A stretch of 39,536 nt of DNA, taken from the NCBI GenBank assembly GCA_017469935.1, contig JAFUFL010000067.1, positions 1-39,536 of the forward strand, in the 5' to 3' direction. This document shows, in pieces, positions 10,785-26,022 of this stretch. The position numbers and the translations under genes are program-made. The notes beneath the pieces were generated by a model that did not search any database, was not told the DNA's origin, and was given only the letters and a program-made list of their open reading frames with translations. This DNA comes from Lachnospiraceae bacterium. Its GTDB lineage: Bacteria > Bacillota > Clostridia > Lachnospirales > Lachnospiraceae. Position 1 is the first letter of the stretch; each line of letters starts with the position of its first letter.

Positions 10785-10812
10785 TTGACAAATCTCCGCA
10801 TCCGCCTATAAT
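10785..10812 (+). promoter_or_regulatory. Consensus sigma-A promoter for carA
   Basis: TTGACA (10785-10790), a 16-nt spacer and TATAAT (10807-10812) match the housekeeping consensus fully. Transcription should begin near 10819-10821, leaving an approximately 270-nt leader before carA. Confidence 0.8.
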
Positions 10813-10839
10813 TTTTACAAATGAAATATCGTAATTCTC

Positions 10840-10894
10840 AAGGCGCAATGACGTGCCGGAGCTCAAATGCTTCGGGGGTCATTGCGCCTTTTTT
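10840..10894 (+). terminator. Promoter-proximal terminator/attenuator in the carA leader
   Basis: A perfect 13-bp stem, AAGGCGCAATGAC/GTCATTGCGCCTT (10840-10852, 10878-10890), is followed by six T. It forms only about 20 nt after the predicted start, so most transcripts would end here unless readthrough is controlled. No plus-strand gene upstream needs a terminator. Confidence 0.7.
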
Positions 10895-11069
10895 GCGCGT
10901 AAGCAATGAGCCATGCGCAGACAGGATGGCGAACAGACAGCGAGAGCTTGCTCTCAGATGGCTGTTCGTCAGACTGGGTGCATACGGCGAACGCCGCGAC
11001 AGTCACGAGCCGTGAAACGGCTTATGACCTGTCGGCATGGCTCAATGCGGCATGGCTCATTGCCCGCGC
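10895..11069 (+). promoter_or_regulatory. Structured leader element before carA (copy 1)
   Basis: The element is closed by a 14-bp perfect inverted repeat, GCAATGAGCCATGC (10903-10916) with 11050-11063. Inside are hairpin H1 (10931-10936/10962-10967 with inner 10942-10947/10950-10955), H2 (10985-10988/10993-10996) and H3 (10997-11002/11029-11034 with apex 11008-11013/11017-11022). The dapL leader has the same order of stems with compensatory changes. A competing 3' closing strand, GCATGGCTCAATGC, lies at 11035-11048. It could be a cis-regulatory RNA or a MITE-like repeat; ligand unknown. Confidence 0.6.
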
Positions 11070-11090: not shown

Positions 11091-12290
11091 ATGAAAAGAA
11101 AATGTGACCGCCAGATCATCCTCGAAGACGGAACTCACTACAGCGGCTGCGGATTCGGTGATCTGCAGGACAAGATTCTTGAGATCGTCTTCAACACCTC
11201 CATGGCCGGCTATCAGGAGATTCTCTCGGACCCCTCCTACACAGATCAGGCCGTCGTCATGACCTATCCATTGATTGGAAACTATGGCATGGCCGACGAG
11301 GACTATGAGACGGATCGACCCACGATCGGTGCGCTGATCGTGCACGAATACAATGATGAACCGTCTAATTTCAGAAGTACGGCTTCTCTGGGAGACGTCA
11401 TGAAAAAGCACGGAATTGCCGGCATCAGCGGCGTAGATACCCGAAAGCTGAACCGCTCGATCCGGGACTTCGGAACAAGGAAATGTCTGATCACGGACAT
11501 CGGGACGCCGCTCGAAGAGGGACTGAAGAAACTGCGAAACTTTTCAGCGCCTGTGGACGCCGTATCGAGGGTCGGCAGTAAGGAGATTTGGAGCTCTCCT
11601 GCATGTAATGTGCAGACGGATGGCATGACCGGGCCGGTGACGGTCCCGGCAGCAGAAGACGCGGCTGCACCTGCGCAGACGCCCTCTCCCGCTCCCTTCC
11701 ACGTCGTCCTCATCGACTGCGGCATGAAGAAAAACATCCTCCGTTCCCTGAACCGACGCGGCTGCGACGTGACGGTCGTCCCCTGGAACACGACCTCTGA
11801 GGTAGTTTGTTCTCTCAAGCCGGACGGCGTCCTCATCTCCAACGGCCCCGGCGATCCCACCGATGTGCCCGAGACGATAGAGACAGTGCGTGCTCTGCGC
11901 GGAATCTGCCCCATCTTCGGCATCTGCCTGGGTCACCAGATCCTGTCCCTCGCCTATGGGGCCAGGACCTACAAGCTCAAATTCGGCCATCGCGGCGGAA
12001 ATCATCCCGTCAGGGACCTGCAGTCCGGGCGCATCGAAATTACTTCGCAGAACCACTCTTACGCGGTGGACGTGAAGTCCCTGGCGCAGACCGGGCTTGA
12101 AGTGACGCATGTCAATATTTTGGACGGGACGATTGAGGGCATCAAATGCGGGAAAGATAACGCATTCAGTGTCCAGTACCACCCGGAGAGCACGCCGGGA
12201 CCGCAGGACAGCGCGTATCTGTTTGACCGGTTTATTGCGCTGATGCGGGCGGCAAGAGACAAGGAGGTATCCAATGCCCAAGCGAACTGA
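11091..12290 (+). CDS. carA: Carbamoyl phosphate synthase small (glutaminase) subunit
   Basis: The 399-aa CarA hydrolyses glutamine and channels ammonia to CarB for arginine and pyrimidine synthesis. The N-terminal domain has VFNTSMAGYQEILSDPSY (33-50) and GISGVDTR (111-118). The class I amidotransferase domain has the nucleophile Cys279 in GICLGH and His364/Glu366 in YHPEST. The linker between domains (about 178-203) is Ala/Pro-rich and longer than I expect. The start at 11091 has AAAGGA upstream; in-frame ATGs further up fall in the structured leader. A TTSEVVC segment (235-240) is encoded by a degenerate copy of the local GACCTC repeat but keeps normal family length. carB overlaps by 17 bp. 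Confidence 0.95.
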   Translation: MKRKCDRQIILEDGTHYSGCGFGDLQDKILEIVFNTSMAGYQEILSDPSYTDQAVVMTYPLIGNYGMADEDYETDRPTIGALIVHEYNDEPSNFRSTASLGDVMKKHGIAGISGVDTRKLNRSIRDFGTRKCLITDIGTPLEEGLKKLRNFSAPVDAVSRVGSKEIWSSPACNVQTDGMTGPVTVPAAEDAAAPAQTPSPAPFHVVLIDCGMKKNILRSLNRRGCDVTVVPWNTTSEVVCSLKPDGVLISNGPGDPTDVPETIETVRALRGICPIFGICLGHQILSLAYGARTYKLKFGHRGGNHPVRDLQSGRIEITSQNHSYAVDVKSLAQTGLEVTHVNILDGTIEGIKCGKDNAFSVQYHPESTPGPQDSAYLFDRFIALMRAARDKEVSNAQAN

Positions 12291-15200
12291 TATCCACAAG
12301 ATTCTCGTCATCGGCTCCGGTCCCATTGTGATCGGGCAGGCGGCCGAGTTTGACTACGCCGGGACCCAGGCCTGCCTGGCGCTCAAGGAGGAGGGCTATG
12401 AGGTCGTCCTGTGCAATTCCAACCCCGCGACCATCATGACCGACACGTCGATCGCGGACAAAGTCTACATGGAACCTCTGACTCTGGAATACATTGCCAA
12501 AATAGTGCGCAAAGAGAGGCCGGACGCTATTTTGCCGGGGATTGGCGGGCAGACGGGGCTCAATCTGGCCATGCAGCTGGAGAAGAAGGGGATCCTGGCG
12601 GAGTGCCGGACGGAGCTTCTGGGCACCAAAAGCCGCTCCATCGAGCAGGCGGAGGACCGCGAGCTGTTCAAGGAGCTGTGCCTGCGGCTGGGAGAGCCGG
12701 TGCTGCCCTCGGAGATCGCCTGTTCCATGGAAGAAGGCCTTAAGGCGGCGCGCGACATCGGATATCCGGTCGTCCTTCGGCCCGCTTTCACGCTCGGCGG
12801 CACGGGCGGCGGCTTTGCGGACAACGAGAAGGAATTTCTTTCCATCATGAAGAACGCCCTCGCGCTCTCCCCGGTCCGCCAGGTCCTGATCGAGAAGAGC
12901 GTCAAGGGCTACAAAGAGATCGAGTATGAGGTGATGCGCGATCGAAACGACACCGCCATCACCATCTGCAACATGGAAAACCTGGATCCCGTGGGCATTC
13001 ACACCGGGGATTCTATTGTCGTGTGTCCGTCGCAGACGCTCACCAATAAGGAGTATCACATGCTGCGCGACAGCGCGCTGAAGGTGATCCGCGCCCTTGA
13101 GATCGAGGGCGGCTGCAATGTCCAGTTCGCGCTGGATCCCGGCTCCTTCCAATACTACCTGATCGAGGTCAATCCGCGCGTCTCCCGCTCGTCGGCGCTG
13201 GCATCCAAGGCGAGCGGCTACCCCATCGCCCGCGTCTCCGCCAAGATCGGGGTCGGCATGACTCTCGACGAAATTCCGCTGGCCAATACGCCGGCCGCTT
13301 TTGAGCCGGCCCTCGACTACGTCGTCACCAAGATGCCGCGCTTTCCCTTTGACAAATTCACGGAGGCCGACAACTCTCTCTCCACCCAGATGAAGGCGAC
13401 CGGCGAAGTCATGAGCATAGGCCGCACACTGGAGGAGAGCCTTCTCAAGGCGGTCCGCTCTCTCGAGACGGGGCACTTCCATCTGCACGATCCGAAGTTT
13501 GATCAGCTGACTGCCTCAGAGCTGCTTATGTATATTCGCACCGGCACGGATGATCGGATTTTTGCCATCACGGAGCTGATGCGCCGGGAGCAGGAAAAAT
13601 CGACCTCCGGGGAAAAATCGACCTCTGGGGTATCGTGTTCGACCTCCGGGGTTTCTTGTGCGACCTCCGGGGTATCGCGTTCCGGCGATGTACAACCGAC
13701 CTCCGCGGTATCGTATCCCCTTCTCGAGGAATCAATCCGCCGTCAGAGCGGCATCGACCCCTTCTTCCTGCGTGCCATCCGCCGCATTGTGGAAGAAGAG
13801 AAAGCGCTCTTCGCTGCTCCCGGCGACCTGGAGGAACTGTGCGAGGCCAAGAGAATGGGCTTCTCGGACCGGGAAATCGGTGTTCTGTGGGGGCTCTCCG
13901 AGGAGGCGGTCTTTGCTCTGCGGTCAAAAAACAGAATCATGCCGGTCTACAAGATGATCGACACCTGCGCCTCAGAGTTTGAAAGTTATGTTCCTTATTT
14001 TTACTCGACCTACGAGACTGGGCGTTTCGAAGCTGCAGATTACAACGATACCCCAGAGGTCGCAGTTCCCCCTCAGCAAGAGACCTCCGGGGTAGTCTGC
14101 ACCTCTGGGGTAGTCTGCGCTCTGGAAGTCGAAAACGAAGTCCGCCTCTCCGCCAAAAAGAAAGTGATCGTTCTCGGCGCCGGCCCCATCCGCATCGGCC
14201 AGGGCGTGGAATTCGACTATTCCACCGTGCACGCCGTACAGACGATCCAAAAGGCGGGTTACGAGGCGATCATCATCAACAACAATCCGGAAACCGTTTC
14301 TACCGACTATACTTGCTCGGACAAGCTCTATTTTGAACCGCTCTGCGTGGAAGACGTGATGAACGTGATCGAGATGGAAAAGCCCGACGGCGTCATCGTA
14401 ACGCTCGGAGGTCAGACGGCGATCAATCTGGCGGATCCGCTTCACGCCCGAAGGGTCAAAATCATCGGCACAGACTGTGAAGCCATCGACAAAGCGGAGA
14501 ACCGGGAACTGTTCGAGAAACTCCTGGAGACGCTGGGAATCCCGCAGCCTAAGGGATGTGCCGTCACTTCCGCCGCAGAAGGGCTCGCCGCCGCGGAAAA
14601 GATAGGCTATCCGGTGCTGGTCCGCCCCAGCTTCGTTCTGGGCGGCCGCGCCATGCAGATCGTCGCCAAGGAGTCTGACCTGCGTGAATATCTTGGGACC
14701 GCGGAGCCCATCGATGAGAGCAGGCCGGTGCTCGTGGACCACTATATACGAGGCAAAGAAGTGGAAGTAGACGCCGTGTGCGACGGCGAGATGGTCTTTG
14801 TCCCGGGCATTATGGAGCTGGTCGAGAGGACCGGCGTTCACTCGGGCGACTCGATCAGTGTCTATCCTCCTTACAGCCTCTCGGCGAACGTCAAAAAGAC
14901 GATTCTCGACTACACGGAGAGACTGGGCATAGGCATCGGGATCCGCGGACTCTTCAACATACAGTTCATCGTCGATGAGAGGGAGAATGTCTACATCATC
15001 GAGGTCAATCCCCGCTCCTCCCGGACGGTTCCGTTTCTCTCCAAGGCAACGGGTTACAGCCTTGCCGACATCGCCACGCTTGTCAGTCTCGGCATCACTT
15101 TGAAAGGTCAGGGGCTCATCGTGCGTTATCCCGCCGAAAAGGCCCGCTATTACGTCAAAGTTCCCGCCTTTTCCTTCTCCAAACTGCGCGGCATGGACGC

Positions 15201-15828: not shown

Positions 15829-17283
15829 ATGAGTCTGCGAACAATTCTTGCAACGGCTGCCGCCAAGGCAGTTCTTGCGGCATGCCATCTGACCGGCCGG
15901 CCGGGCTCTTCTCTGCCCGGACGGGCCGCCCTGAAGGTCGACCCGCAGATCATAGCGTCCCTCGCGGCGCAGGTCCGGCGCGGGATCATCGTGACCTGCG
16001 GCACCAACGGCAAAACGACCACCAATAACCTGCTCTGCGACATGCTCGAGGCGCAGGGGTTTCGCGTCGTCTCCAACCGCCTGGGCGCCAACATGATGGA
16101 AGGCGTCGCCGCCGCTCTGGCCACTGCTGCGAGCCCTCTCGCCACAAGACCTCCGGGGTATCGTAGTGCCCCGGCTTCCGGGGGACCTCTGGGGTATCTC
16201 GATGCGGACTTCGCGTGCCTGGAAGTCGATGAGGCATCCGCCGCCCGCGTCCTGCAGTATCTCAAGCCCGATTACATGATCATCACCGGTCTCTTCCGTG
16301 ACCAGCTGGACCGCTACGGCGAGATCGACCTCACCATGAAAGCCCTCGAAAAGGCGATCGCCCTTGCGCCGGACATGACTCTCGTCATCAACGGCGATGA
16401 CCCGCTCACAGCTTTTCTGGCCCAAAAGAGCGGCCATCGCTTCGTCGCTTTCGGCGTCAGCGAACAAACTACCCCGGAGGTCGATTTTCCCCCGGCAGAG
16501 GCCGTTTCCACCCCGGTTTCCACTCCAAACTCCTCCGACGAGATCCGGGAAGGCCGCTTCTGCGAAAACTGCGGTGCCCCTCTGCACTATGATTTTTATC
16601 ACTTCAGCCAGCTCGGCGTATACCGATGCCCGTCCTGCGGCTTTAAGAGGCCGGCGATCGCCTATGACGCTGCCCGCGTGACTATGACGCCGCAGCTTTC
16701 TTTTGATGTACTGGAAGAAGATTCTGCCCCGATTCGGATCTCTGCCCCGATGACCGGTTTCTACAATGTCTATAACATTCTGGCAGTATACGGCGTTCTG
16801 AGAGAGCTGGATCTTCCCACAGAAAGCATCAATGAAGTCCTGCGAAACTATAAGCCGCAGTTCGGGAGAGGCGAGCTCTTCTACCTGGGCCGAAACCGGG
16901 AACAAAAGGTTCTTTTAAACCTCGCCAAAAATCCCACCGGGTTTGGCCAAAATATCGCGGCCATGCTTCAGGACCGCTCCCCGAAAGACCTGATCATCGC
17001 GATCAACGACAACGCCCAGGACGGCAGGGATATTTCCTGGCTGTGGGACGTGGATTTTGAGAGACTGGCCGATGAGACGGTCCTTTCCATCACAGTGAGT
17101 GGACTTCGCGCACTCGACATGCAGCTCAGACTCAAATATGCTGAGATTGCGTCGACCTCTGCGAAAACTGTGGAAGAGGCCATAGAGCGCCGGCTTGCAG
17201 ACGGCTGCGGCAACCTGTATGTACTCGTCAATTACACGGCACTGTATGAGGCACATAAGTATCTGGAAGGAACCGCTAAATGA
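15829..17283 (+). CDS. murT: Lipid II isoglutaminyl synthase, MurT subunit
   Basis: MurT with GatD amidates the alpha-carboxyl of D-Glu in the lipid II stem peptide. This 484-aa protein shows the Mur-ligase P-loop GTNGKTT (58-64), the middle-domain LFRDQLDRYGE motif (155-164), a four-Cys zinc ribbon (CENCG at 245-249, CPSCG at 267-271) and the C-terminal DUF1727 region with WLWDVDFE around 404-411. It is longer than usual because of repeat-derived insertions at about 107-123 (PPGY/PLGY) and 214-221 (TTPEVDF). AGAGGAG precedes the start. Its stop overlaps the gatD start by 4 bp (ATGA), fitting an obligate complex. Confidence 0.93.
   Translation: MSLRTILATAAAKAVLAACHLTGRPGSSLPGRAALKVDPQIIASLAAQVRRGIIVTCGTNGKTTTNNLLCDMLEAQGFRVVSNRLGANMMEGVAAALATAASPLATRPPGYRSAPASGGPLGYLDADFACLEVDEASAARVLQYLKPDYMIITGLFRDQLDRYGEIDLTMKALEKAIALAPDMTLVINGDDPLTAFLAQKSGHRFVAFGVSEQTTPEVDFPPAEAVSTPVSTPNSSDEIREGRFCENCGAPLHYDFYHFSQLGVYRCPSCGFKRPAIAYDAARVTMTPQLSFDVLEEDSAPIRISAPMTGFYNVYNILAVYGVLRELDLPTESINEVLRNYKPQFGRGELFYLGRNREQKVLLNLAKNPTGFGQNIAAMLQDRSPKDLIIAINDNAQDGRDISWLWDVDFERLADETVLSITVSGLRALDMQLRLKYAEIASTSAKTVEEAIERRLADGCGNLYVLVNYTALYEAHKYLEGTAK
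16148..16203 (+). repeat. Two GACCTC repeat units inside murT
   Basis: Units at 16148 and 16184 encode RPPGYRS and GPLGYL, a different reading frame from the TSGV peptides in carB. The same DNA unit has therefore entered two genes in two frames. Confidence 0.8.
16470..16483 (-). repeat. Inverted GACCTC repeat unit inside murT
   Basis: TACCCCGGAGGTCG is the reverse complement of the core and encodes TTPEVD just before the zinc ribbon, an extra linker compared with typical MurT. Confidence 0.7.
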
Positions 17284-19824: not shown

Positions 19825-19872
19825 GACCTCTGGGGTGATTTGCTCTGAACCACGACCTCTGGGGTAGTTTGC
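19825..19872 (+). repeat. Tandem GACCTC repeat between asnB and dapL
   Basis: Two units 29 bp apart (cores from 19825 and 19854) read CGACCTCTGGGGT followed by gATTTGCTC or AGTTTGCAC. They begin a few bases after the dapL stop. This non-coding copy shows the repeat is a DNA-level element. Confidence 0.8.
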
Positions 19873-19873
19873 A

Positions 19874-21088
19874 CTACATCTTTTTAATCCTGTCCACCGC
19901 CTCGACCGTGCTCTCCCGGCTCCCAAATGCCGTCAGACGGAAGAAATGTTCCCCGTGCGGCCCGAATCCGGATCCCGGCGTTCCGACCACGTGCGCCTTC
20001 GTGAGCAAATGGTCAAAAAATTGCCAGCTCGTCATATTACCGGGGGTCCGCAGCCAGATGTAAGGAGCGTTCACGCCGCCCGATACCTCATAGCCTGCGG
20101 ACCGCAGTCCCTCCAGGATATACTTCGCATTGCCCATGTAATACGCGATCTGTTCACGGACCTGCTGCCTGCCCGCTTCCGAGTAGACCGCTTCGCCGGC
20201 ACGCTGGATGATATAAGGAGCTCCGTTATATTTGGTCCCGTGACGCCTCGCCCACAGCGGCAACAGCCTCTCGCCGCCCGCCGTCAGATCCATAGGGATC
20301 ACTGTGTATCCGAGCCGCAGTCCGGTAAAGCCCGCCGTCTTGGAGAAGGAACGGAACTCGATCGCGCACCCTCTGGCGCCCTCGCATTCATAAATGCTGT
20401 GAGGCACATCCGACTCCGAAATATAGGCCTCATAGGCCGCGTCGTACAAAATGATCGAGTCATGCCGATTCGCGTAATCGACCCACTTCTGCAGCTGCGC
20501 CTTCGTCATGACGGCTCCCGTAGGATTGTTGGGGAAGCACAGATAGATCAGATCCGGCACCTCCTTCGGCAGCTCCGGTACAAAGCCGTTCTCCGCCGTG
20601 CATGGCATATAGATCACGTTATCAAACCGGCCTGTCTGCGCATTGTAAGCGCCCGCTCTGCCTGCCATGACATTGGAATCCACATAAACCGGATACACCG
20701 GGTCGCACACGGCGATTCGGCTCGAAAGATCGAAGATCTCCTGAATATTGCCGCAGTCGCACTTGGCGCCGTCGGAGATGAAAATCTCCTCCGCCGAGAT
20801 CGCGCACCCTCTTGCCTTGTAGTCCTCTCGCGCAATCACATCCCGCAGAAACTCGTAACCCAGATCCGGCGCATAGCCTCGGAAGGTCTCCGCATAGCCC
20901 ATCTCATCGACCGCCCCGTGCAAAGCATCAATGACGGCAGGTGCAATCGGCTGCGTGACGTCGCCGATTCCCAGCCGGATGATCTTCGCCTCCGGATTCG
21001 CCTGCGAGAATTCCCGCACTCTTCTTCCGATTTCCGAGAACAGATAACTTCCCGGCAGTTTTAAATAGTTGTTATTGATCTTTGCCAA
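19874..21088 (-). CDS. dapL: LL-diaminopimelate aminotransferase
   Basis: The 404-aa fold type I aminotransferase converts tetrahydrodipicolinate directly to LL-DAP for lysine and peptidoglycan. DapL hallmarks are [14 protein letters not shown] (11-24), [10 protein letters not shown] (39-48), [12 protein letters not shown] (105-116), FPNNPTGA (185-192) and PLP Lys250 in [12 protein letters not shown]. The start is a TTG at 21088 with AAAGGAG 7 nt upstream; longer in-frame starts fall in the repeat-rich leader. Expression is probably influenced by the structured leader element upstream, which is shared with carA. asnB follows. Confidence 0.92.
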
Positions 21089-21115
21089 AATATACTCCTT
21101 TCGGGTGCGTGTACA

Positions 21116-21318
21116 CCTGCCCGTGAGCAAGCTCCCGGCAGTCGTATGACATCCTGTCCACGCATGGCTTTGTTTACGCAATGAGCCCTGCCGACAAATC
21201 GCTGCGCCGCTTCGCGGCTTGCGATTGTCGCGGCATTCGCCGTATGTGTCCAGTCTGTCATACGCCTGCCCGTGAGCAAGCTCCCGGCAGTCGTATGACA
21301 TCCTGTCCACGCATGGCT
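21116..21318 (-). repeat. 54-bp perfect direct repeat in the dapL leader
   Basis: The segments 21116-21169 and 21265-21318 are identical over 54 bp and 149 bp apart. Each starts with CCTGCCCGTGAGCAAGC and ends with CACGCATGGCT (plus-strand reading). The copy nearer dapL repeats the 5' half of the structured element, as if a second unit had been truncated. Confidence 0.85.
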
Positions 21319-21330
21319 CATTGCTACGCG
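21178..21330 (-). promoter_or_regulatory. Structured leader element before dapL (copy 2)
   Basis: On the minus strand it begins GCGCGTAGCAATGAGCC and closes with GGCTCATTGC, a 10-bp closing stem. Inside are H1 (21256-21300: TGTCATACG/CGTATGACA plus inner CTGCC/GGCAG and GAGC/GCTC), H2 (GGCGAATGCC) and H3 (CGACAA/TTGTCG, TCGC/GCGA, apex GCCGCGAAGCGGC). Against the carA copy, H3 outer changes CGACAA/TTGTCG to CGACAG/CTGTCG and the apex changes GCCGC/GCGGC to GCCGT/ACGGC, both pair-preserving. Confidence 0.6.
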
Positions 21331-21331
21331 C

Positions 21332-21383
21332 AAAAACGGCACTTCAAGCATGGATCATATCGATCCTTGCTTGAAGCGCCGTT
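21332..21383 (-). terminator. Hairpin plus T5 ahead of the dapL leader element
   Basis: A 16-bp stem with one G-U pair (21335-21350/21368-21383) and an internal GGATC/GATCC stem precedes TTTTT on the minus strand. It can serve as terminator of the sugar isomerase gene ending at 21476. It occupies the same place as the carA attenuator relative to the structured element. Confidence 0.75.
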
Positions 21384-21475
21384 GCCTCATCATTGATAGA
21401 TTGTTTAAATCAGAACTTTTCTTCGTCTATACTACTTCCAACGCCCGAAAAAATCAAGTGCCGGATCAAAATACC

Positions 21476-22905: not shown

Positions 22906-22978
22906 GTGTGTCACGGGGACGTATCTTCTGACACATTTTGTTCCAAAATGTGTCAGAAGATACGTCCCCGTGACACAC
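22906..22978. repeat. Perfect 35-bp palindrome (REP-like hairpin)
   Basis: Arms 22906-22940 and 22944-22978 are exactly complementary with a TTC loop. The arms begin GTGTGTCACGGGGACG. CGGGGAC-containing hairpins of this type recur in Clostridia genomes and resemble REP sequences mobilised by Y1 (RAYT) transposases. It abuts the glycosyltransferase stop and may also act as a transcript 3' end. Confidence 0.85.
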
Positions 22979-24140: not shown

Positions 24141-24219
24141 CACTCGCACCGCCTTTCTGATCGGTCCAAAAATCTCACGCCCTTCCTGATTTCTCACCAT
24201 GCATGCTGTCTCTTCGCGC

Positions 24220-24571
24220 TCAAATCTCCATCTCCAGCAGGATCGGCGTATGATCCTGCCTGGGCCCCGAATCGATCATCTCCGACCGCTTCACCTGCTC
24301 CTTGATGCGGTCGCTGACCAGGAAGTAGTCAATTCTCCAGCCGGAATTGTTGATCTTGCTGGTCCGGATTCTCTGCGCCCACCAGGAATAGACATCCTTC
24401 ACATCTCCTTGCACGTAGCGGAACGTGTCGACGAATCCCTTGGCCAGAAGATGAGATCAGCGTCCTGATCAGCTAATGAAGAAAGTACGTCTCTGGACAG
24501 CTGTGCTCTGGGGGAATCCGAGGTCAGTGCAGCATTTAGTGAATCTATGTTCCATGATATAAACTTAAGCA
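24220..24571 (-). pseudogene. Chimeric exonuclease III remnant
   Basis: The segment 24220-24452 repeats the last 233 bp of the intact exonuclease gene (25192-25424) with only about four differences. The segment about 24480-24571 repeats its first 90 bp but at only about 83% identity. The central 500 bp is missing and the frame is broken at the join. The two halves thus have different ages: an older decayed paralogue whose 3' end was recently rewritten by, or copied from, the neighbour. No functional product is expected. Confidence 0.85.
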
Positions 24572-25142: not shown

Positions 25143-25191
25143 AACATCCTCTCTATCTAAACAGCATATTAGCCAAGCTGTAATGTGCGCC

Positions 25192-26022
25192 TCAGATCTC
25201 CATCTCCAGCAGGATCGGCGTATGATCCTGCCTGGGCCCCGAATCGATCATCTCCGACCGCTTCACCTGCTCCTTGATGCGGTCGCTGACCAGGAAGTAG
25301 TCAATTCTCCAACCGGAATTGTTAATCTTGCTGGTCCGGATTCTCTGCGCCCACCAGGAATAGACATCCTTCACATCTCCATGCACGTAGCGGAACGTGT
25401 CGACGAATCCCTTGGCCAGAAGATTAGTAAATCCTTCCCTTTCCTCATCCGTAAATCCCGCCGACATGTGGTTGGACTCTGGATGAGCCAGGTCGATCTC
25501 TTTATGTGCTACGTTAAAGTCGCCGCAGGCGATCACGGGTTTCTTCTGATCCAGCTGCGAGAGATATTCCGCGTAGCATTTGTCCCATTCCTGGCGCTCG
25601 CCCAGTCTCCCCAGTCCGTCTCCGGCATTCGGCGTGTATACGTTGGCAAAATAATAACTGCCGAGGTCAAGAACAAGGAGCCTCCCCTCGTCATCCATGG
25701 TGCTCGGTGCGCCGATTCTGGGGGCGATTTTTTCCGCCTGAATTCCTTCTTTGTAAAGGATCATCGTTCCCGCATAGCCTTTTCTGGCCGGAGGCTCCGA
25801 GCTGATCCACTCGACATGATAGCCGGGGAACAGCGTTTCCAGCGCTTCCGTGTGTTTTTTGGCCGGTCCCGTTGCCGGAAGCTTGGTCTCCTGTATGGCA
25901 ATAATGTCGGCGTCTTCCCTGGCCAATGTATTCAGTACGTCTCTGGACAGCAGCGCTCTGGGAGAGTCCGATGTCAGTGCGGCGTTTAACGAATCTATAT
26001 TCCATGATATGAATTTGGTCAT
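25192..26022 (-). CDS. xth: Exodeoxyribonuclease III / AP endonuclease
   Basis: The 276-aa enzyme of the EEP superfamily cuts abasic sites in base-excision repair. Active-site motifs are all present: ISWNIDSL with Asn8, IQETKL with Glu45, VYTPNAG with Tyr129, GDFNVAH with Asp168/Asn170, RIDYFLVS, and RQDHTP with catalytic His267. AAAAGGAGG precedes the ATG. Length is normal. Its 3' end is duplicated in the pseudogene 740 bp away. Confidence 0.93.
   Translation of the reverse strand: MTKFISWNIDSLNAALTSDSPRALLSRDVLNTLAREDADIIAIQETKLPATGPAKKHTEALETLFPGYHVEWISSEPPARKGYAGTMILYKEGIQAEKIAPRIGAPSTMDDEGRLLVLDLGSYYFANVYTPNAGDGLGRLGERQEWDKCYAEYLSQLDQKKPVIACGDFNVAHKEIDLAHPESNHMSAGFTDEEREGFTNLLAKGFVDTFRYVHGDVKDVYSWWAQRIRTSKINNSGWRIDYFLVSDRIKEQVKRSEMIDSGPRQDHTPILLEMEI

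Follow-up and report, generated by a model that had tools for sequence, protein, structure and literature searches.

A probable family of dispersed, structured repeats in Lachnospiraceae with copies in the carA and dapL leaders

REP/RAYT systems are small, palindromic, dispersed DNA. MITEs are non-coding, base-paired and dispersed, and have inverted terminal arms (PMC10969869, PMC3049150). Pneumococcal BOX elements are small interspersed modular repeats with a predicted secondary structure, which their authors judged to be parasitic; one BOX forms a composite with T-box riboswitches, and BOX ends have been proposed to resemble ISSpn2 (PMC3049150). Group IIC introns insert at the DNA motifs of intrinsic terminators (PMC4424553).

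Here we examine an element that occurs in the leaders of carA and dapL within a 39,536-nucleotide stretch of DNA from a Lachnospiraceae bacterium (contig JAFUFL010000067.1; this whole stretch is referred to as the window). BOX is the system closest in kind, as both are small interspersed structured repeats; the element differs from it in sequence and fold, in adjoining terminators, in residing in Lachnospiraceae-type genomes and in having no partner found (PMC3049150). A search of mainly openly accessible papers, without supplements, found no published description of the element. Judging from the available portions, PMC8040213 may include it as an unnamed motif, and PMC7812874 and PMC2267715 contain nothing bearing on it. 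Rfam at its gathering cut-off, applied to the window and to sets of 13 and 20 loci, returned only flanking tRNA, T-box and rRNA matches and none over the element; at E<=10 there were six hits, all far under the cut-off. This agrees with the original prediction of a structured, covarying element outside any named class. As set out below, the element probably represents a family of non-coding, non-autonomous, dispersed, structured repeats moved in trans, the copies at carA and dapL being insertions and not sensors.

The features of the two loci are collected in Table 1. A repeat search of the window aligned 10902-11021 with 21206-21325 at 74%, and at both genes the element starts directly 3' of the T-run of a leader hairpin. 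The motifs described as common to both leaders are all present, namely GCAATGAGCC/GGCTCATTGC, GACAGGATG...CAGACTGG, GGCGAAYGCC, the GAGCTTGCTC tip and a stem of the CGACAG/CTGTCG type. The pattern GACAGGATGN{10,40}CAGACTGG gave 0 matches because its gap was too short, the carA spacing being 43. Covariance model R1, built from 12 ungapped copies, matched the partial second copy beside the dapL element weakly (15.4 bits, E 0.3). The carA and dapL leader hairpins were read directly from the sequence and were absent from the pattern-scan output, the carA hairpin probably on account of a loop larger than the 8 that the scan allows. GGCGC opens the terminator-like hairpins of both the carA (10813-10894) and dapL (21332-21400, minus strand) leaders.

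Table 1. Positions in the window of the element copies, their arms and the surrounding features.
Feature	Position	Strand	Evidence or remark
carA promoter-like site TTGACA-16-TATAAT	10785..10812	+	Upstream of element; 12/12 consensus match (0.8 such sites expected by shuffling)
carA leader terminator-like hairpin GGCGCAATGAC...GTCATTGCGCC + T-run, adjoining element	10842..10894	+	Sequence reading
carA element copy, GCGCG to end of second GGCTCATTGC	10895..11063	+	R1 match 10902-11044, 115.5 bits, E 7.9e-30; fold
P1 5' strand GCAATGAGCCATGC, carA copy	10903..10916	+	Fold; family-wide covariation
P2, carA copy: long hairpin, tandem G.A pairs, GAGCTTGCTC tip	10917..10981	+	Fold, covariation
P3 CGGC-GAAC-GCCG, carA copy	10985..10996	+	Fold
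P4 arm, carA copy	10997..11034	+	Fold, covariation
P1 3' strand GCATGGCTCA, carA copy	11035-11044	+	Second occurrence as GGCATGGCTCATTGC at 11049-11063
carA, carbamoyl-phosphate synthase small subunit	11094..12290	+	TIGR01368 1.2e-135
dapL, LL-diaminopimelate aminotransferase, TTG start	19874..21088	-	TIGR03542 6.1e-180
Partial second copy (GCCATGCG + P2 arm/tip), 3' of dapL element	21112..21169	-	58 nt, 98% identity
dapL element copy	21178..21331	-	R1 match 21182-21325, 112.2 bits, E 6.9e-29; fold
dapL leader terminator-like hairpin + T-run, adjoining element	21332..21380	-	Sequence reading

The element is non-coding, spans about 140-150 bp and folds as a four-way junction composed of P1, a long P2, a small P3 and P4. 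In the plan common to both copies, GCAATGAGCCATGC pairs with GCATGGCTCATTGC in P1, P2 ends in the GAGCTTGCTC tip, P3 is CGGC-GAAY-GCCG and P4 is the remaining arm, with ATA joining P2 and P3 in the junction. The fold of the carA copy (10895-11065) was computed at -94.8 kcal/mol (z -8.79 against dinucleotide shuffles) and that of the dapL copy (21178-21330, minus strand) at -90.6 kcal/mol (z -10.89). The complement of the carA copy was also stable (-84.3 kcal/mol, z -6.25), as is expected of any palindromic sequence.

Two copies alone are weak evidence of covariation, which is strong across larger alignments. We assembled an anchored, gap-free set in which every copy has the same distance between two invariant anchors, with 59 rows (47 without near-duplicates), so that this alignment was not fitted to the fold. 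We tested 34 pairs, 30 in P2 and 4 invariant ones in P3; for 25 of them, the APC-corrected mutual information was above the maximum reached anywhere in 20 column shuffles (47 copies; kinship not modelled). A total of 30 column pairs lay above the shuffle maximum, the remaining five falling in or near the same register. P3 is invariant in the 47 copies and is therefore uninformative on pairing there. A more diverse set was fitted to the model, an alignment that leans towards the fold; in this set pairing holds in 90.6% of cells, both sides vary at 55 of 59 pairs, P1 and P4 also covary, and the covariation score was 0.729, compared to 0.175 for shuffled columns and at most 0.135 for slid partners. 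Since membership of the well-aligned sets required the core and GAGCCATGCG to be exact, variation at the ends is understated. The covariation first proposed between the stems of the two leaders is upheld in larger alignments.

Copies of the element are dispersed through the source genome and the family. In the source genome, a DNA search found 31 matches with E<=10, including eight with E<=4e-9, and a 21-base core pattern allowing up to 3 mismatches found 7 places, all exact (0 for the reversed control pattern); this genome carries seven exact-core copies plus fragments. In named genomes, the exact pattern occurred in at least 112 stretches; among the matches listed (80 titles) were Lachnospiraceae, Butyrivibrio, Roseburia, Eubacterium, uncultured Clostridia and two 'Sarcina sp. 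DSM 11001' contigs. At E<=0.01, R1 matched 25 of 61 relatives, namely 25 of 37 in the genus (source genome included; 0-22 matches per genome) and none of 24 from the order's other families. The search of Lachnospiraceae genomes with a covariance model that had originally been suggested yielded, at E<=1e-4, matches in 119 of 299 sampled family genomes (source genome included), corresponding to 118 of 298 genera. At the same threshold, 12 of 291 genomes of the class were matched, 7 in the same family and 5 in three other families. A second model, R2, made from 34 model-aligned matches, two of them weak (22.0 and 19.4 bits), matched 6 of 398 genomes of the phylum, all in the same order; one of the six, G052, is from another family of the order and is among the 24 without an R1 match. 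The counts from the large surveys are lower bounds, as stricter filters were used there. A blastn search of phages and plasmids with the carA copy, which may miss degenerate copies, gave no match, and neither did one exact 21-base pattern, which degenerate copies may escape, in viral contigs. The dispersal through genome and family supports the mobile hairpin-rich repeat that had been offered as an alternative to selection on an RNA structure.

We then considered where the copies lie. A hairpin and T-run directly precede the 5' end in 53 of 94 copies (7 from the source genome, 82 from named genomes and 5 from other genomes), whereas the figure for these loci is 2.5% at random positions and 18.7% at T-matched ones (1,000 of each). 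By the same test, 41 of the 94 have no terminator-like 5' flank; other copies sit after stop codons, tRNA ends or AT-rich sites. The mirrored test on the 3' flank, taken at the best of 13 offsets, was positive for 16 of 88. Neighbours vary and include tRNA genes and T-box terminators. Rfam includes group II models. There was no Rfam match and so no group II ribozyme domains were detected, and the element is too short for a reverse transcriptase, in both of which it differs from group IIC introns. The element resembles these introns in lying behind intrinsic terminators (PMC4424553). The 5' end of the element is regular and the 3' end ragged. A second piece of the copy's own 5' arm lies within about 120 nt downstream in 13 of 86 copies and upstream in 0, which we read as tandem duplication.

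These ends bear on whether the element is a classical MITE of a DDE-transposase insertion sequence with terminal inverted repeats, which we consider unlikely. P1 could serve as the inverted repeat (GCAATGAGCC/GGCTCATTGC), and the element is like MITEs in being non-coding, dispersed and base-paired, with P1 arms that pair, as inverted terminal arms would (PMC10969869). It is unlike them in its ragged and often incomplete 3' arm beside a regular 5' end, and in having no general target duplication and no partner found (PMC10969869). Flanks scored at least 8 of 10 in 17 of 86 copies compared to 10.5 expected; of the MITE signature that had been set out at the start, the dispersed copies were thus found and general target duplications were not. 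The strand-specific mismatches described below also speak against a MITE, as does the absence of a longer, ORF-bearing form from the fetched loci, where such a form would rarely be expected because the short element was used to select them. Of 147 5' ends in these loci, 135 (duplicates included) have a core within 140 nt, and one of the other 12 has a more distant core, at 233 nt. Separately, the copies of a subgroup (L032, L035, L065, L084, L112, L121 and L125) are flanked on either side by CTGAAAGTTT-like motifs and have a similar, CGATACACCTACTAA-like 3' extension.

To look for a mobiliser, we compared gene families between genomes of the genus with and without the element. Y1_Tnp was more common in element-bearing genomes (21/25 vs 5/12, Fisher p 0.018), as was RAYT-sized Y1_Tnp in a hand count (15/25 vs 3/12, p 0.079), both figures being uncorrected for kinship, multiple families and MAG gaps. 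Because of these uncorrected statistics, and because the six Y1_Tnp loci of the source genome have no element nearby, the association is a lead only, and the comparison turned up no mobiliser. Group II reverse transcriptase did not track the element (11/25 genomes with it vs 5/12 without, p 1.0). The element further differs from REP/RAYT systems in its length and its multiple arms, and one RAYT-like gene of the source genome sits amid a different repeat.

Several other repeats were observed in passing. The REP-like motif GACCTCYGNGGT has twelve matches inside ORFs of the window (11792, 13620-13710, 14050-14095, 16148-16197, 16471 and 19825-19866). Six of these lie in carB, where they are read as Thr-Ser-Gly-Val-like repeats without a break in the frame; a MurT-like gene contains three, a gene that by eye is asparagine-synthase-like two, and carA one. 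Within 3.3 kb surrounding a REP-associated tyrosine transposase-like gene (L146; 68.7 bits, where the cut-off is 80), the same motif was counted 12 times, compared to 4 times in other stretches of the source genome totalling 66,080 bases. The window also contains an inverted repeat with perfect 35-bp arms set 3 nt apart (22906-22978) and a 237-nt direct repeat, 98% identical (24219-24455 and 25191-25427), one copy of which falls within a gene that by eye is exonuclease III-like.

The position of the copies behind terminators and stop codons, and the terminator-like form of some P2 arms, would also fit a host-useful 3'-end, insulator or processing element placed there by selection. We regard this explanation as improbable for the family as a whole, given its patchy occurrence in the genus and its decay at carA and dapL in several genomes. 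Eight close genomes were compared at the carA site: the element is full in four (G000, G024, G022 and G003), survives as remnants in three (G007, G013 and G033) and could not be made out by eye in G036. Whether or not they have the element, all eight carry both the promoter-like site and the leader hairpin. Among five close genomes, the dapL site has a full element only in the source genome and reduced pieces in G024, G007, G033 and G003. A dapL-like leader hairpin is found in these four and in two genomes without the element (G014 and G011), and neither hairpin nor element is present at the dapL site of G036 and G017. In G018, an element piece lies at a different place. More distant genomes of the genus, whose leaders were compared in register by eye, lack the carA-type leader. 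We had considered the leader terminators as part of the element and dropped this, as the hairpins differ between the loci and persist without it. They are a feature separate from the element and possibly regulatory; their persistence in relatives without the element suggests attenuation.

For some copies, a host role is possible. An rpsU-like stop codon (the gene named by eye) directly precedes copies L042, L069, L073, L098, L110, L137, L212 and L213, some of which may be one record. The copies behind these genes have related P2 arms ending in a terminator-like T-run, with G-T intermediates between A-T and G-C pairs, and seem to have been kept by descent, so that some copies may be host-adopted.

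We next asked which strand folds, and whether the covariation could be purely mutational, produced by hairpin-templated correction without selection on the fold. In the 47 copies, 275 of 1,410 P2 cells are non-standard, with 216 G.A compared to 6 C.T, where base composition alone predicts a ratio of about 2:1. Tandem pairs in the order GA then AG occur 58 times, in 32 of the 47 copies, and in the reverse order 0 times. Inheritance from a single ancestral arm contributes to the G.A excess, yet the mismatches occupy several separate positions. Since a cruciform, or blind correction of a hairpin, would be symmetric, this strand bias indicates that the plus strand, as RNA or ssDNA, holds the meaningful fold. 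Templated change may nevertheless have occurred. A copy of the source genome (C99, locus L008) and one of Lachnospiraceae UBA4260 (L088) occupy the same site, with terminator and downstream flank aligning; between the two, 7 of 24 positions differ in the 5' arm of P2 and 2 of 24 in the 3' arm, and the outer 21 nt of P2 contain 1 mismatch in C99 and 6 in L088. This difference looks like one templated conversion towards a perfect palindrome. Palindromic P2 arms, unrelated in sequence, occur in several other copies; together with the rewritten arm they imply that part of the covariation may be mutational. That all of it is so appears very doubtful, as blind correction has no strand preference and P1 and P4 covary too.

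The original prediction placed the element in 5' leaders, as a device shared by carA and dapL for the control of nitrogen or amino-acid genes. Of 95 distinct copies, 33 have less than 900 nt on a side and 10 lie inside a mechanical ORF; 50 could be classified by the orientation of flanking mechanical ORFs (++ 21, +- 11, -- 10 and -+ 8), which gives 29 upstream of a codirectional ORF and 21 not. The copies are thus not confined to leaders, and the shared leader function fails because the element varies at both sites (full at carA in 4/8, at dapL in 1/5) while the leader hairpin persists. A cis-regulatory RNA (a riboswitch or protein-binding leader) for genes such as carA and dapL would account for the strong strand-specific structure, the conserved P3, the tandem G.A pairs and the 29 copies before a codirectional ORF, but is highly improbable given the other 21, the varied neighbours, a terminator that lies upstream of the element and not within it, and truncation or loss of the element at both loci in close relatives that keep that terminator.

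In the reading that we prefer, of repeats moved in trans, the fold, as RNA or ssDNA, would be what a trans-acting enzyme recognises. Insertion would set the 5' end (TGCGCG) behind the T-tract of a terminator or behind other transcript or gene 3' ends, where it would do little harm. Inserted copies would then decay through deletion and small tandem duplication, and some arms may become near-perfect palindromes by templated conversion. We infer active mobility from the pattern of copies; neither a transposition event nor a clean empty site was seen among the compared sites, and the presence/absence pattern is also compatible with old insertion followed by decay. More tentatively, and as a rather doubtful extension, the repeats may form a hitherto undescribed class of structure-addressed mobile elements, in which the four-way junction is recognised more than the sequence, with insertion in one orientation behind intrinsic terminators by an enzyme acting on RNA or ssDNA, across a large share of the genera of the host family.

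Together, these results would add to an abundant family of gut and rumen bacteria a structured repeat that is common and apparently uncatalogued. They would also serve as a warning that 'covariation' between two copies in leaders can stem from mobile repeats, and palindrome conversion, as seen in one orthologous pair, can mimic compensatory evolution. If our reading is true, the element would offer a tractable case of terminator-directed insertion.
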